Shown here: positions 26,797 through 54,382 of the stretch, piece by piece
Layout: each line of letters begins with the position of its first letter
Numbering within the stretch: position 1 is the stretch's first letter
From: Frankia alni ACN14a
Lineage (GTDB): Bacteria > Actinomycetota > Actinomycetes > Frankiales > Frankiaceae
Direction of reading: 5' to 3'
DNA: 64,000 nucleotides
Assembly: GCF_000058485.1 (NCBI RefSeq)
Contig: NC_008278.1
Coordinates: 676,962 to 740,961, forward strand
Translations under genes and position numbers: made by a program
Notes under the pieces: generated by a model
Databases searched by the model: none
Seen by the model: the letters and a program-made list of their open reading frames with translations, nothing else
What the model was told of the DNA's origin: nothing

Positions 26797-27465
26797 GTGT
26801 GGTTCGGTTGGATCGTGGCGTCGAATCCCCTTGCCGGCTGGTGGGGCAAGAACAAGCGAACCGTACTCATCGTCGGGGCCGTCATCGTCGTGCTGTGGGT
26901 CTTCATCGAGCGCGGCAACGGCCCGAAGACCAAGCGCGTCAGCATGCCCAAGGACTACGGCTCGGCCGACCGGGAACTGCTCGTGCACGCCCCGTCGGAC
27001 CCGAAGGATCCGATCCCGCTGGTGCTGATCCTGCACGACGACAACGTCGACGCCAAGACCCTCGACCATGACAGCGCCGCCGGCTCGGTGGCGAACGCCC
27101 GCAACTTCGCGGTCGCCTATCCCGAGGCGGTCGGCGGCACCTGGCGGATCGACTCCCCGGACGGCGCCGACGCGAAGTACCTGCGCGACGTGGTCAGCTA
27201 CGTCTCCGCGAAGAAGACCAAGGTCGACCCGAACCGGATCTACGTGTGGGGCGTCGGCGAGGGCGCTCGGCTCGCGCTGACCGTCGTCTGCGGCGGCGCC
27301 AAACCGATCTTTGCGGCCGTCGGTGTGGTGGGGCAGTTCACGCAGGAGCCGCAGTCCGCCTGCCCGGGTCGGGCACCGGAGGCGAGGGTTGCCGAGACCA
27401 AGTGGAACAAGAAGGTCAGCGAGACGCTGTGGACGGCCTCCGCCAAGCACCACCTGGGAGCCTGA
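26797..27465 (+). CDS. Membrane-anchored esterase-like protein lacking the catalytic serine
   Basis: A 222-residue protein with one N-terminal transmembrane helix (TVLIVGAVIVVLWVFI) and then the alpha/beta hydrolase core of the LpqC/polyhydroxybutyrate-depolymerase esterase type: PLVLILHDDN, FAVAYPEAVGGTW, YLRDVVSYVS, VDPNRIYVWGVGEGARLAL. In active members the elbow is GxSxG; here it is GVGEG, so the serine position is Gly, and the LHG oxyanion motif is LHD. No matching C-terminal histidine is obvious. The fold is retained but it is probably not a hydrolase; a binding or structural role is inference. GTG 26815 is an alternative start. Confidence 0.75.
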   Translation: MWFGWIVASNPLAGWWGKNKRTVLIVGAVIVVLWVFIERGNGPKTKRVSMPKDYGSADRELLVHAPSDPKDPIPLVLILHDDNVDAKTLDHDSAAGSVANARNFAVAYPEAVGGTWRIDSPDGADAKYLRDVVSYVSAKKTKVDPNRIYVWGVGEGARLALTVVCGGAKPIFAAVGVVGQFTQEPQSACPGRAPEARVAETKWNKKVSETLWTASAKHHLGA

Positions 27466-27500
27466 GCCCCGAGCCTCAGTCCGAGTCCGAGAACCTGATA

Positions 27501-27517
27501 CCGGGCCCTGGGCCCGG
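27501..27517. terminator. Palindrome 3' of the esterase-like gene
   Basis: CCGGGCCC T GGGCCCGG (27501-27517), about 35 bp beyond the stop, is a self-complementary stem and likely a transcription terminator. Confidence 0.4.
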
Positions 27518-27645
27518 GGCCGCTGACCGTCTGCCGGCCGAGGCCGGCCCGTCTGAGCGAGAGGCCGTCCGCAGAGGCGCCCGATGGCGGCCCTCCACGG
27601 CCTCCAGGTGCCGCGTACGCGCCCGCGACGGCTGGGTGGAAGCGA

Positions 27646-27692
27646 AGGTCCGCCGATGCCGCCGGGAGGGGGGTAGCGGCATCGGCGGACCT
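27646..27692. repeat. Hairpin 1: perfect 17-bp stem with G-run loop
   Basis: AGGTCCGCCGATGCCGC (27646-27662) pairs perfectly with 27676-27692; the 13-nt loop 27663-27675 carries GGGAGGGGGG. It lies in the gene-free convergent interval. Confidence 0.9.
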
Positions 27693-27716
27693 CAGTGGCC
27701 GGATGGAACCCGAGGG

Positions 27717-27769
27717 CCCGCCGGCCTCCCGCTGCGGATGGGGGGGGAATCCGAGGGAAGGCCGGCGGG
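27717..27769. repeat. Hairpin 2: 11-bp stem, nested CGGAT/ATCCG stem, G8 loop
   Basis: CCCGCCGGCCT (27717-27727) pairs perfectly with 27759-27769. Inside, CGGAT (27735-27739) pairs with ATCCG (27749-27753) around a run of eight G (27740-27747). Confidence 0.8.
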
Positions 27770-27777
27770 GTCGGGGG

Positions 27778-27836
27778 CCTTCCGGCCGGACGGACGTCAG
27801 ATGGGGGGGAGATCTGACGTCCGTCCGGCCGGAAGG
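27778..27836. repeat. Hairpin 3: perfect 25-bp stem with GGGGGGGAG loop
   Basis: Positions 27778-27802 are exactly complementary to 27812-27836; the 9-nt loop is GGGGGGGAG. It is the strongest inverted repeat in the window and is followed by a gene-free stretch to 28328. Confidence 0.95.
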
Positions 27837-27986
27837 AGGCGTTGCCCGGCTGGCACGGAAGCGAGGTCGGGTCGTGGTGCCGCGGGCGATGGCAGGGCCC
27901 GCGTACTGGAGCTGGTCCCGGCTCGGCCAGGACTACGACGCCGCCCGGCTTCGGCGGGCGCGCGGACCGGGTGCAGGTGGTCCGGC

Positions 27987-28034
27987 GGTGTCTCGGCGTC
28001 GGTGGTGTCTCGGCGTCAACGGAGTCTCGGCGTC
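27987..28034. repeat. 17-bp tandem repeat, three units
   Basis: GGTGTCTCGGCGTC occurs at 27987 and 28004 and as GGAGTCTCGGCGTC at 28021, a 17-bp period, within the 863-bp gene-free interval 27466-28328. Apart from the three hairpins and this array nothing was recognised there. Confidence 0.8.
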
Positions 28035-28328
28035 GGCCGCGTCGTGGAACAGCGTCCGGGGCAGCCGCGATGATGACCCGGACGGTTCGGCGATGCGCAC
28101 CTTCCGCCTGCCGGGGGGAGCAGGCCCGGCGGGGCGGGCACGACGGTGTACGGACGCGCGGTGAACCGAGGCCTGACCGGCGATCTGACCGCACGCGCGA
28201 CCGGAGGGGGAGGCCGCGTCGCGATCGGCTCGGGGCTGGACGGGCTTCGTCGCACTTCCAGCCGGACGAGGTGACCACCGCAGGGCCGGCGCCGCACCGC
28301 AGGGCACCGTGCGCTGGCGTGAACGCTC

Positions 28329-29438
28329 TTAGACGCGTCCGACGTAGTAGGAGGTGGTGTAGATCGACTGGAGCTTCACGACGCTGCCCGTGTGCGGGGC
28401 GACCCACATCTTGCCGTCGCCGGCGTAGATGCCGACGTGGTAGATGTCTCCGGGCGAGCCGAGGAAGATCAGGTCGCCGGGCTGCTTGTTGTACTGCGAC
28501 ACCCGGGTGGTGGCGGCAAACTGGGCGTCCGTGGTCCGCGGCAGGCTCTTGCCGAGCTGCTTGAAGACGTACTGGACGAGCCCGGAGCAGTCGAACGAGC
28601 TCGGGCCGTCGGCGCCGTAGACGTACGGCTTGCCCGCCTGCAGGGAGGCCAGGTAGACGGCCTTCGCGCCGATCGAGCTGGACGGCACCGGCACGGACAC
28701 CTGGGGGGAACCGACGGAGACGCCGCCGGAGAGGCTGCCCAGGCGGGCCGAGACACCGGCGAGCGGGGCCCGCTGCGGGCGCACGTTCAGGGTCGCGTCG
28801 TTGACCGAGTGGGCGGACTGCAGGGCGTCGGTGCCATCGAAGATCGCCGTGACGTTCGTCGTGGTGAGCACCCGCGCCGTGTAGGACGCGTAGCCCTGCG
28901 CGTTCGTCTGGAGGTGCTTGAAGGTGGCCCACCCGGTGGGGAGCTTCACCTGCACCTTGACGAGCTGGTTCGCCAGCGGCTCGTGGGTGGCCTCGTTGTA
29001 CAGCGAGAAGCCGATGTCGACCGGCTCGTCCGCGTTCACGGTCACGTCGGGGTTCGTCACCCGCAGGCCGACCTGGACCTTGCCGGCCAGGGGCGGGGCG
29101 TCGAGCCCGTTCGCCGCACCGAGAGTGAGTCCCGAGGAGCTGTGCTCGCTGACCGCCGCCGCGGCGATGCTGCCACCCAGGGCGGCACGCGAGCCGATCT
29201 GCGCGGCGAGGGTGATCGGGGCGGTGTTCGGCGACTCTTCCAACGCCGTGTCGGCGTGGACGTCGGTGGCGCAGCCGGCCAGGGCCACTCCGGAGACAGC
29301 GACAGTCCCGGTGGTCATCGCGGCGAAGGCACGAGCACGGGCCCGGCTACGGGCGACCGGCGGCACGGTCTGGGCGCGGTGACGGCCGCGACCGGCGACG
29401 CGCGAATCTTCGTCGAGCTGCACGCTTTGCGCGGACAA
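28329..29438 (-). CDS. NlpC/P60 peptidoglycan hydrolase, probable lipoprotein
   Basis: A 369-residue exported protein. The N-terminus is basic (RSRARARAFAAMTTG) then hydrophobic and ends in VALAGC, a plausible lipobox. The middle (about 120-220) is an all-beta Ig-like region with ITLAAQIG, LRVTNPDVTVNADEPV and YASYTARVLTTTNVT. The C-terminus is an NlpC/P60 endopeptidase: GKPYVYGADGPSSFDCSGLV (Cys), PGDLIFLGSPGDIYHVGIYA (His) and APHTGSVVKL (third residue). GGAAGGA sits 8 nt before a TTG at 29438, which fixes that start; the frame stays open farther upstream through the riboswitch. It should cut peptide cross-links in the cell wall, controlled by c-di-AMP. Confidence 0.9.
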   Translation of the reverse strand: MSAQSVQLDEDSRVAGRGRHRAQTVPPVARSRARARAFAAMTTGTVAVSGVALAGCATDVHADTALEESPNTAPITLAAQIGSRAALGGSIAAAAVSEHSSSGLTLGAANGLDAPPLAGKVQVGLRVTNPDVTVNADEPVDIGFSLYNEATHEPLANQLVKVQVKLPTGWATFKHLQTNAQGYASYTARVLTTTNVTAIFDGTDALQSAHSVNDATLNVRPQRAPLAGVSARLGSLSGGVSVGSPQVSVPVPSSSIGAKAVYLASLQAGKPYVYGADGPSSFDCSGLVQYVFKQLGKSLPRTTDAQFAATTRVSQYNKQPGDLIFLGSPGDIYHVGIYAGDGKMWVAPHTGSVVKLQSIYTTSYYVGRV

Positions 29439-29454
29439 CGGTGTATTCCTTCCC

Positions 29455-29645
29455 GTACGCCTGCGAAGTGAGCTGTCGGGTTCGGGCTGGGCTGCCCGGT
29501 CCGAGGCGTGGCCTTCACGCACATCGGACTTGACCCCGAGACCAGCACCGCGGGTCGGTGCCGGCCGATGGAGGTGGGTCCCCCGCTCCTGCCCCAGATG
29601 ACGACTCGGAGGGGACACCGTGGCCGGGGGCAGGATTCGGCGTTC
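29455..29645 (-). promoter_or_regulatory. c-di-AMP (ydaO/yuaA-type) riboswitch
   Basis: The leader of the NlpC/P60 gene, read on the minus strand, contains the conserved blocks of the actinobacterial ydaO motif in order: GCCGAATCCTGCCCC, GGCCACGGTGTCC, GGGGCAGGAGCGGGGGACCC, GTGAAGGCCACGCC, CCCGAACCCGACAGCTCAC and TCGCAGGCGTACGG, ending a few bases before the ribosome binding site. In actinomycetes this riboswitch turns off wall hydrolases (Rpf, NlpC/P60) when c-di-AMP binds. Boundaries are approximate. Confidence 0.88.
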
Positions 29646-30777: not shown

Positions 30778-32148
30778 TCAGAGCCAGCCGTTGCGTTTGA
30801 ACGCCCGGTACAGAAACAGGCAGGCCGTCGCCATCACGGCGAGAACCGTTGGGTAACCCCAGGTCTGGCGCAGTTCGGGCATGTGCTCGAAGTTCATTCC
30901 GTAGATTCCGGCCAGTGCCGTGGGAACGGCGGCGATCGCGACCCAGGCGCTGATCCGCCGCATGTCCTCGTTCTGGGCGATCGTCACCTGGGTCAGGGTG
31001 GCCTGCAGCACCGACGACAGCAGCTCGTCGAAGTGTTCGATGCGCTCGCTGACCTGCTCGAGATGGTCGGCGACGTCCCGGAAGTACCGCCGCATCGCCG
31101 CGTCGACCAGCCGCGGGCCCTCCGCCGTGAGCGTGCGCAGCGGGCCGGCCAGCGGCTGGACGGCGTGCTTGAGCTCCAGCAGCTCGCGCTTCATCTGGTA
31201 GGCGCTTTCCGTGGACGGGGTCTGGTCGCGCCGGAACACGCCGGCCTCGATCTGGTCGACGTCGACCTGGATCTTCTCCACGGTGTCGACGTAGTTGTCG
31301 ACGACGCTGTCGCAGATGGCGTGCAGCACCGAGGTCGGCCCGTGCCGGAGCATCTCCGGCGTGGCCTCGAGCCGGCGCCGCAGCCGGGTCATCTCCCCGT
31401 GCTGGCCGTGCCGCACCGTCACCACGAAGTCCTCGCCGAGGAAAATCATGATCTCGCCGGTGGTGACCACCTCGGAGGTACCCGTCACCTCGGTGTGTGC
31501 CACGTAGCTGGCGGTCTTGAGGACCACGAACAGGTGGTTCTCGTACTGCTCGAGCTTGGGCCGCTGGCCGCCGGTGACCGCGTCCTCAACAGCAAGCTTG
31601 TCCAGGCCGTACTCCTGCGCCACGGCGGCGAGCTGGTCGTAGCTGGGCTCGAACAGGCCCAGCCAGGCGAAACCGTCGCGTTCCGTCCGCGCCACCCGCA
31701 GCGCGTCGGAGTGATCGACCTCCATCGTCACGCACCGCCCATGGCTGTAGACCCCGCACGCCATCACCCGGCCGTCGGGCGTCGCCGGCAGCTCGACCCG
31801 CCGCGCCCGGCGGCGCTTGCGGCCAACCCGGACCAGCGACACCGGCCGGCTCAGCGCGCCGGCGAGCCGGTGCGCGTTCGCCGAGGCCTGCCCCAGGGCG
31901 TCCTCCAGGGCGTCGAGCACCGGATGCTCGCCGCCCGCCTGGCCGGGCACGCCCGAGCGACCGTCCGGTTCCGTGTGCCCCGGTTCCGTGTGCCCCGGTT
32001 CCGCGCGCCCCGGTTCCGCGCGCCCCGGTTCCGCGCGCCCCGGTTCCGCGCGCCCCGGTTCCGCGCGCCCCGGTTCCGCGCGCCCCGGTTCCGCGCGCCC
32101 CGGCCCCGTGTGCCCCGGCTCCGCGCCTGCCGCGTCGTCTCGCACCAT
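30778..32148 (-). CDS. corA: CorA-family magnesium/cobalt transporter with repeat-expanded N-terminus
   Basis: A 456-residue divalent cation channel. The C-terminus has two membrane helices with the selectivity motif IYGMNFEHMPE (GMN) between helices and WGYPTVLAVMATACLFLYRAF, preceded by the long helix DEDMRR-like QNEDMRRISAWVAIAAVPTALAG. The cytosolic domain contains WLGLFEPSYDQL and MIFLGEDFVVTVRHG. The N-terminal about 50 residues consist of pentapeptide repeats (RAEPG seven times, flanked by HTEPG variants) encoded by a 15-bp minisatellite. AGAGG precedes the ATG at 32148; the frame is open farther upstream through another repetitive leader. Confidence 0.9.
   Translation of the reverse strand: MVRDDAAGAEPGHTGPGRAEPGRAEPGRAEPGRAEPGRAEPGRAEPGRAEPGHTEPGHTEPDGRSGVPGQAGGEHPVLDALEDALGQASANAHRLAGALSRPVSLVRVGRKRRRARRVELPATPDGRVMACGVYSHGRCVTMEVDHSDALRVARTERDGFAWLGLFEPSYDQLAAVAQEYGLDKLAVEDAVTGGQRPKLEQYENHLFVVLKTASYVAHTEVTGTSEVVTTGEIMIFLGEDFVVTVRHGQHGEMTRLRRRLEATPEMLRHGPTSVLHAICDSVVDNYVDTVEKIQVDVDQIEAGVFRRDQTPSTESAYQMKRELLELKHAVQPLAGPLRTLTAEGPRLVDAAMRRYFRDVADHLEQVSERIEHFDELLSSVLQATLTQVTIAQNEDMRRISAWVAIAAVPTALAGIYGMNFEHMPELRQTWGYPTVLAVMATACLFLYRAFKRNGWL
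31969..32123. repeat. 15-bp coding minisatellite in corA
   Basis: About ten to eleven copies of CCCCGGTTCCGCGCG or close variants; seven central copies are identical. On the minus strand each encodes five residues (RAEPG). Confidence 0.92.
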
Positions 32149-32531
32149 CGCCTCTTTCCCGTCGCCCACGTTGCCCGCCGCCCACGTTGCCAGTCGCCCA
32201 GGTTCCCGAGTTGCCGAGGTGCCCAGCTTCCCAAGCGGCCAAGCTTCCCAAGTGGCACAGCTTCCGCGGAACGCCCTCGCTTCCGCGTGCCCTCGTTCGC
32301 CGCGGGGTCCCCTCCATGGTGACAAGTCGGGCCCGGCCGCCACGACGTGATCCGCGGCTCGCCCCGGACGCGGCTCGATCGCCCCGGACGCGGGTCGGCA
32401 TCGCTGGCAGGGGGATGGTTCGTGTGTGGTCCGAGGTTCGAGCGAGGGTCGGGAGGCAGGACCGTCGCTACTCGGAGATGCACACATGTGGCCTCGAGTA
32501 GTGATGACCTACTCGTTTAGGCTGATCGGCC
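32149..32531. other. Divergent region between corA and the DUF4139 gene
   Basis: About 380 bp. 32160-32290 is a degenerate array of short words such as GCTTCCCAAG and GTTGCCAGTCGCCC in the corA leader. CTACTCG (32468-32474) and CGAGTAG (32495-32501) form an inverted repeat, with another CTACTCG at 32509-32515 immediately before the DUF4139 gene. Confidence 0.5.
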
Positions 32532-53443: not shown

Positions 53444-54382
53444 TCAGACGGAGGTCAACGCCTGCGCGCGCCGTGCCAGTCGGGCCTGGGTGTGTTCGAA
53501 CTTCTCCTGCTGCTGCGCGGCGGCCGCGTCGAGGCCGGCGAGGAAGGTGGCGACCTCCTCGCGGGCTTGTTCGCCCGCGGCGTCCAGCCCCGTCAGGTCG
53601 AAGAAACGCCACTGGCGCAGGATCGGCGCCACCACGTCGTCATGGTGGACACGCAGGTTGTAGATGCCGGCCCGGGCGATCTGGATGGCCTTGCGGCCGA
53701 AGTCGCGGATGCCGACGCCGGGCATCACGAAATTGAGGATCTCGTCCCGGATGGCCTCCACCGTCCGGGACGGGGCGATCTCCAGCGCGGCGGCCACGAG
53801 ATTCCGGTAGAAGATCATGTGCAGGTTCTCGTCGGCGGCCACGCGGGCCAGCAGCTTCTCGGCGACAGGCTCCCCGCAGAAACGCCCCGTGTTGCGGTGG
53901 CTGACCCGGGTCGCCAGCTCCTGGAAGGACACGTACGCCATCGACTGCAGCGGCGTGATGCCGGGCCGATCGAAGCCCCGGCTCATCTGGTACATGCGGT
54001 CACGTTCGAGGGCGACCGGGTCGACCCCCCGGGTGACCATCAGGTAGTCGCGCATCGCGATCGCGTGGCGGCCCTCCTCGGCCGTCCACCGGTGCACCCA
54101 GGTGCCCCAGGCGCCATCCTGGCTGAAACCGTCCGCGATGACCCGGTGATAGCTCGGGAGATTGTCCTCCGTGAGCAGATTGACCTCGAAGGCGATCTGC
54201 GCCGCCTTCGACAGGGACGACTGGCCGGGCTCCCAGGGAACGGTGTCGAAATCCCGGCCCAGGCTCCAGGGGACGTAGTCGTGCGGCATCCACTCGGTGG
54301 CGATGCCGAGATGCCGGTTCACGTTCGCCTCGGCGACGGGCTCCAGCTCGCGAATCAGCTCGGTGTCCGTGAGTGATCTCAT
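53444..54382 (-). CDS. Acyl-ACP desaturase (DesA family, ferritin-like)
   Basis: A 312-residue soluble di-iron enzyme that inserts a double bond into acyl-ACP chains. The iron ligands are in the two ferritin-like pairs: WTAEEGRHAIAMRDYL (ExxH) and ARVAADENLHMIFYRNLV (ExxH), with LLTEDNLPSYHRVI earlier. It starts MRSLTDTELIRELEPVAE at ATG 54382. Such enzymes are common in actinomycetes, supplying unsaturated fatty acids. It is divergent from the OmpR-type two-component genes. Confidence 0.9.
   Translation of the reverse strand: MRSLTDTELIRELEPVAEANVNRHLGIATEWMPHDYVPWSLGRDFDTVPWEPGQSSLSKAAQIAFEVNLLTEDNLPSYHRVIADGFSQDGAWGTWVHRWTAEEGRHAIAMRDYLMVTRGVDPVALERDRMYQMSRGFDRPGITPLQSMAYVSFQELATRVSHRNTGRFCGEPVAEKLLARVAADENLHMIFYRNLVAAALEIAPSRTVEAIRDEILNFVMPGVGIRDFGRKAIQIARAGIYNLRVHHDDVVAPILRQWRFFDLTGLDAAGEQAREEVATFLAGLDAAAAQQQEKFEHTQARLARRAQALTSV

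Follow-up and report, generated by a model that had tools for sequence, protein, structure and literature searches.

What is the block of strong hairpins that lies between two convergent genes of Frankia alni ACN14a, and which of its strands is maintained by selection? The window, the whole 64,000-nucleotide stretch that was analysed, sits in the single 7,497,934-base chromosome of this organism. A sequence-only reading had drawn attention to three inverted repeats within 190 bp of a gene-free convergent interval, each with a G-rich loop, and had proposed either a structured RNA or an element whose G runs pair with one another or form a quadruplex.

The gap between nlpC and the esterase-like gene

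The gap (27466-28328) is bordered on one side by nlpC, which encodes an NlpC/P60 peptidoglycan hydrolase, and on the opposite side by murT, gatD and an esterase-like gene. The gene content of the two convergent units suggests that the cell wall is involved, at least in part. A c-di-AMP riboswitch lies ahead of nlpC, as in all eight of the related loci tested, and its core carries a G tract, GGAGCGGGGGACC, to which the C-loops described below are complementary. The start of nlpC is probably the TTG at 29438, behind GGAAGGA; we placed it there because the longer open reading frame called from 29618 overlaps the riboswitch throughout. The features of the locus are:

26797-27465, plus strand: esterase-like gene with an Esterase_PHB domain, in the convergent unit on the murT-gatD side
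27646-27692, minus strand: hairpin 1, a 17-bp stem plus a loop-closing G-U pair, minus-strand loop UACCCCCCUCCCGG
27717-27769, minus strand: hairpin 2, composite stem, minus-strand loop AUUCCCCCCCCAU
27778-27836, minus strand: hairpin 3, which leads the block in the minus-strand RNA, with a perfect 25-bp stem and the loop CUCCCCCCC
27986-28043: three tandem copies of a 17-bp repeat (GTCTCGGCGTC...), separating hairpin 3 from the hairpins on the nlpC side
about 28104-28132, minus strand: weaker C-loop hairpin CCUGC-UCCCCCCG-GCAGG, found in most genomes of the genus Frankia only
28179-28234, minus strand: hairpin A, stem CGCGGCC/GGUCGCG, anti-Shine-Dalgarno-like loop UCCCCCUCC (28203-28211), 60.9 bits
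28329-29438, minus strand: nlpC (Pfam PF00877, 8.7e-24)
29444-29621, minus strand: c-di-AMP riboswitch (ydaO/yuaA, RF00379) in the nlpC leader, 49.7 bits against a gathering cut-off of 38

The three inverted repeats at 27646-27836 were recovered by repeat search, and their folding goes far beyond that of dinucleotide-preserving shuffles (z -8.7 on the plus strand and -11.8 on the minus strand, none of 200 shuffles folding as well). The outer stems, described as perfect over 17 and 25 bp, are so. The second had been given as a perfect stem with a nested one; the nested stem is present, but the 14-nt arms are only 93% complementary in the repeat search. On the plus strand, hairpin 1 has a 13-nt loop (CGGGAGGGGGGTA), the loop of hairpin 2 holds 8 G and that of hairpin 3 reads GGGGGGGAG. 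The count of 7-9 G claimed for each loop does not hold for the first loop, which contains GGGAGGGGGG, a run of 6. The minimum-energy fold leaves 5-8 C unpaired per loop; these C runs are near-invariant, and the C-loops are conserved across genera.

The gap contains two more hairpins built alike, one at 28179-28234 and one at about 28104-28132, which were absent from the sequence-only reading. The 17-bp tandem repeat that it did report exists at 27986-28043 and showed no conservation alongside the hairpins in relatives. Elsewhere in the window, at about 31900-32250 on the minus strand, a gene for a CorA-like transporter encodes a long series of almost identical AEPGR repeats at its N-terminal end.

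The genome background comprised 60 sampled 20-kb stretches together with the window, amounting to 1.264 Mb or 17% of the chromosome. The 25-bp hairpin 3 is the longest perfect hairpin in this sample, and among all hairpins whose loop contains at least 5 consecutive G or C, hairpins 3 and 1 rank highest; many other strong hairpins occur there without loop runs. Several draft contigs of relatives break, end or are misjoined inside the block (G002:C77, G004:C42/C224, G009:C290, G012:C457), while the Candidatus Frankia meridionalis assembly (G020) shows a stretch of N at this place. The hairpin block seems hard to sequence and easily missed in drafts.

Conservation and compensatory pairing in Frankiaceae

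When the whole gap (27466-28328) was searched against 58 relatives, the distant ones matched only 27646-27837, the match ending sharply at the outer arm of hairpin 1 on one side and of hairpin 3 on the other. The block is the best-conserved portion of the intergenic region and often the sole match within the gap. It is found at the same convergent site in each of the 12 other Frankia and 6 Parafrankia genomes, whole or partial at a contig end (e.g. G002, G004), with an identity of 77-98%, where the neighbouring proteins are 56-98% identical. In two genomes (G007 and G008), the block is 91-93% identical, as compared to 77-83% for the neighbouring proteins. The hairpins were to be left as ordinary terminators if no conserved copies existed; copies are conserved in every Frankia and Parafrankia genome searched. 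The distance between nlpC and the block varies, from about 190 to 530 nt by the match coordinates in relatives.

Model R1, built from Frankia and Parafrankia with Protofrankia excluded, recovered the orthologous Protofrankia gap at 26.8-35.2 bits in this blind test. The first-look filter of the family-wide model search missed Protofrankia, which was recovered by direct search of the loci. In Protofrankia CIT1, hairpin A is followed by three C7-C8 hairpins spaced 57-60 nt, and Pseudofrankia carries, in the same gap, related run-loop hairpins with unrelated stems and a loop such as GAUCUCCCCCCCAUC. The conservation spans four named genera (Frankia, Parafrankia, Protofrankia and Pseudofrankia), single-copy and syntenic, and hairpin A occurs in 24 genomes from five genera of the family, the uncultured lineage G016 (= L231) included.

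Both blastn and R1 returned a single locus per genome, aside from weak partial matches. A dispersed, REP-like repeat was thereby ruled out. Outside the family, R1 found no match in 137 genomes of the class, and R2 gave weak matches only (best E 0.0077), the two inspected sitting within coding sequence; the plasmid collection held no match to the element.

After hairpin A and before the block, Protofrankia (CIT1, L270), Parafrankia and G016 (L268) have a strong hairpin with a loop of the UUGUCGGGAUCAAC type, which looks like the nlpC terminator. Such a hairpin in this position points to a block that is produced separately or reached by conditional read-through. No clear counterpart of it was seen in F. 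alni.

In alignment A1 (16 genomes), 60 pairs were supported, 97.9% of the cells were paired and 15 of the 60 pairs changed on both sides. None of 500 shuffles was as good in pairing or in covariation score, and sliding the structures dropped the paired fraction to 23-46%. This is the covariance with relatives by which a structured RNA had been expected to reveal itself. It comes mostly from hairpins 1 and 2, with both-side changes in 6 of 17 counted pairs and in 7 of 19 pairs, respectively. Few pairs of hairpin 3 vary because this hairpin is so conserved; its loop-proximal 10-bp stem fits a strict pattern in 16 of 16 Frankia and Parafrankia genomes. The 7-bp stem of hairpin A also covaries (98.1% paired, both-side changes in 5 of 7 pairs), and its loop is nearly invariant around CCCCC-U-C-C.

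The selected strand and rival explanations

The G-rich loops had been taken as the functional feature, which now appears to be a reading of the wrong strand. Among 58 run-loop hairpins from 29 genomes, with identical contexts within a genus removed and related genomes otherwise treated as independent, 35 distinct imperfect pairs were G-U when read on the minus strand (and A-C on the plus) versus 5 of the reverse (binomial p 1.4e-6). The lean toward the minus strand is seen in every genus, and strand-biased mutation pressure may be an alternative source of it. The main hairpin of Protofrankia scarcely folds on the plus strand (z -0.3 to -2.1) as compared to the minus strand (z -5.5 to -6.8), and the minus-strand z-score was the better one in nine of nine full elements. 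Taken together, the G-U bias and the minus-strand folding in Protofrankia indicate that the selected feature is a minus-strand RNA whose loops are C runs rather than G runs, since a DNA element or a plus-strand RNA would predict no minus-strand wobble bias. Judging from these sequence patterns, selection very probably maintains RNA structure on the minus strand, which is that of nlpC. Of the two proposals in the sequence-only reading, the structured RNA is borne out by synteny in four genera and by compensatory changes, whereas G-run pairing or a quadruplex is not, the C strand being the one selected.

The C-loop array lies downstream of nlpC. By one hairpin score, the regions downstream of nlpC in 31 genomes hold 83 C-loop and 0 G-loop hairpins; at the run-loop background of 0.04 per 900 bp per strand, about one of each type is expected over the 31 regions. 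The downstream regions tested of other NlpC/P60 genes of the family contained no C-run loop hairpin by the same score and no R2 match. The L231 region does show C-run loops but is the G016 ortholog.

An unlikely account, though the one that best survives among the rivals, is that the hairpins form a bidirectional terminator and 3'-end stabiliser between the convergent genes, with the loop run incidental or an aid to stacking. The convergent gap and the perfect GC-rich stems fit this account, as does the frequent position of the block just behind the esterase-like gene, 30-70 nt past its stop; high-GC actinobacteria, moreover, use hairpins without U tails. However, it does not explain why there are three to five hairpins whose loop runs, read on the nlpC strand, are always of C (83 to 0), why run-loop hairpins this strong are found nowhere else in the 1.26 Mb sampled, why the sequence is conserved beyond the needs of a terminator, or why the minus-strand wobble bias is so strong. 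Plain terminators as the sole reading were rejected by the background hairpins, the G-U bias and the loop count. The arrangement of an intrinsic terminator, a GC-rich hairpin followed by a T run on the transcribed strand, was not found either: the minus strand has no T run after hairpin 1, the plus strand none after hairpin 3, and no U-rich tail is conserved beside the block.

It is quite improbable that the C-rich loops serve as a Rho loading site in the 3' untranslated region of nlpC, stopping the transcript before it runs antisense into the esterase-like gene. The sequence is C-rich, on the correct strand and downstream of nlpC in a convergent pair; Rho sites, however, are usually unstructured over about 80 nt, and here the Cs are held in short loops on very stable stems with a high G content. 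A cis element, in which the G tract in the message's own riboswitch would pair with the 3' C-loops and so link the two ends of the message, is very unlikely. The riboswitch is present in every locus tested, and the predicted duplexes between loops and riboswitch reach -16 to -22 kcal/mol, but this complementarity is unspecific because the G tract belongs to what we take to be the conserved core of the c-di-AMP riboswitch aptamer. Least credible is a DNA or plus-strand element, a cruciform or a G-quadruplex formed from the G-run loops, for which the long perfect palindromic arms, the plus-strand G runs and the draft contigs that end inside the block could speak, but which gives no reason to favour the wobble pairs of one strand (35 to 5) or for Protofrankia hairpins to fold so poorly on the plus strand, and which, as a quadruplex, lacks four G tracts on the selected strand, one loop having too few separate tracts for an intramolecular form.

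Known C-loop RNAs and a candidate mode of action

The reading that we prefer, a conserved minus-strand RNA, was compared with known C-loop RNAs. In mycobacteria, the C-loops of 6C/B11 repress by pairing with G tracts of 5' leaders; one loop or the other is sufficient, and repression is restored by compensatory mutations (PMC10470900). Like 6C/B11 (RF01066, Actinobacteria), the Frankia element presents loops with runs of about 6 or more C. Unlike 6C, it has three to five hairpins rather than two, stems of up to 25 bp and a different locus, and its scores of 20.9 and 23.9 bits fall short of the gathering cut-off at 47 bits; the canonical 6C of this genome lies at 7144301-7144387 (48.5 bits). NfeR1 of Sinorhizobium has three hairpins with redundant, near-identical anti-Shine-Dalgarno loops on dissimilar stems (PMC10746234). 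The architecture of alpha-r14/NfeR1 (RF02344, rhizobia), with three hairpins, C-rich loops and dissimilar stems, is shared by the Frankia element, but that family is alphaproteobacterial, its motif is CCUCCUCCC rather than C runs, and the scores were 17.6 and 13.3 bits against 58.8.

The C-rich anti-Shine-Dalgarno loop is also a feature of CcsR1 and the CCUCCUCCC-motif RNAs (RF02791), though CcsR1 is proteobacterial and the Frankia element scored 15.4 bits against 65.3. The best bacterial Rfam match on the minus strand was F6 of Mycobacterium tuberculosis (RF01791), with the loop ACCCCC at hairpin 1; at 32.0 bits it is below the cut-off of 46, and F6 is a single short model as opposed to a multi-loop array. 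With all covariance-model scores under their cut-offs, membership in 6C, alpha-r14, CcsR1 and F6 was rejected, and the element is, as judged from its sequence, a C-run-loop RNA by design that lies outside these four families.

Matches to eukaryotic microRNAs were set aside as chance products of the long perfect stem, and Ms1 RNA is reported to be undetected in Frankiales (PMC9130861). A separate Rfam match in the window, to the M. tuberculosis antisense RNA ASdes at 54009-54076 on the plus strand (79.4 bits, far over the cut-off), is probably conserved desaturase coding sequence and not an RNA gene.

Since B11/6C and NfeR1 have the same anatomy, we infer the same action for the Frankia element. 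The stable stems would act as scaffolds that keep runs of 5-10 C, or a CCUCCCCCUCC-like sequence, unpaired in the loops. The RNA would most likely act in trans, its loops pairing either with ribosome-binding sites rich in G or with G tracts of 5' leaders, which would lower the translation of target mRNAs, with several loops being redundant as in 6C/B11 and alpha-r14/NfeR1. By our analysis, a conserved minus-strand RNA core acting in trans on G-rich ribosome-binding sites is the best overall reading and stands at about an even chance; the anti-Shine-Dalgarno step, taken by itself, falls slightly short of that. The RNA is presumably transcribed, either as the 3' part of the nlpC mRNA, made by read-through or cut from it, which would then be switched by the nlpC c-di-AMP riboswitch, or as a separate small RNA with a promoter of its own. 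A flank search in relatives found no conserved promoter on either side of the block, and with no U-rich tail either, an autonomous small RNA is not evident. The variable distance from nlpC, the terminator-type hairpin ahead of the block in some genera and the frequent closeness of the block to the esterase stop also weigh against the preferred reading.

We found no report of the element in the literature searched; the main text of the CcI3 transcriptome paper contains no analysis of intergenic small RNAs. The regulatory RNAs of Frankia, a nodule-forming bacterium, are very poorly known, and the element would be a candidate regulator for the whole family, with a pairing chemistry that is clear and can be tested. 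If the proposed action is true, C-run-loop RNAs would have more than one origin within Actinobacteria and, to judge from the similar design, a further one in unrelated nodule symbionts. An improbable extension of this reading is a Frankiaceae RNA family in which the 3' region of the riboswitch-controlled nlpC mRNA gives a multivalent anti-Shine-Dalgarno regulator, so that c-di-AMP would set the level of a global translational repressor; such a family would be convergent with the anti-Shine-Dalgarno RNA found in rhizobia, which form the other large group of nitrogen fixers in root nodules. Because the element sits behind the riboswitch-controlled nlpC, a connection of c-di-AMP with wall remodelling and translation can be tested directly.
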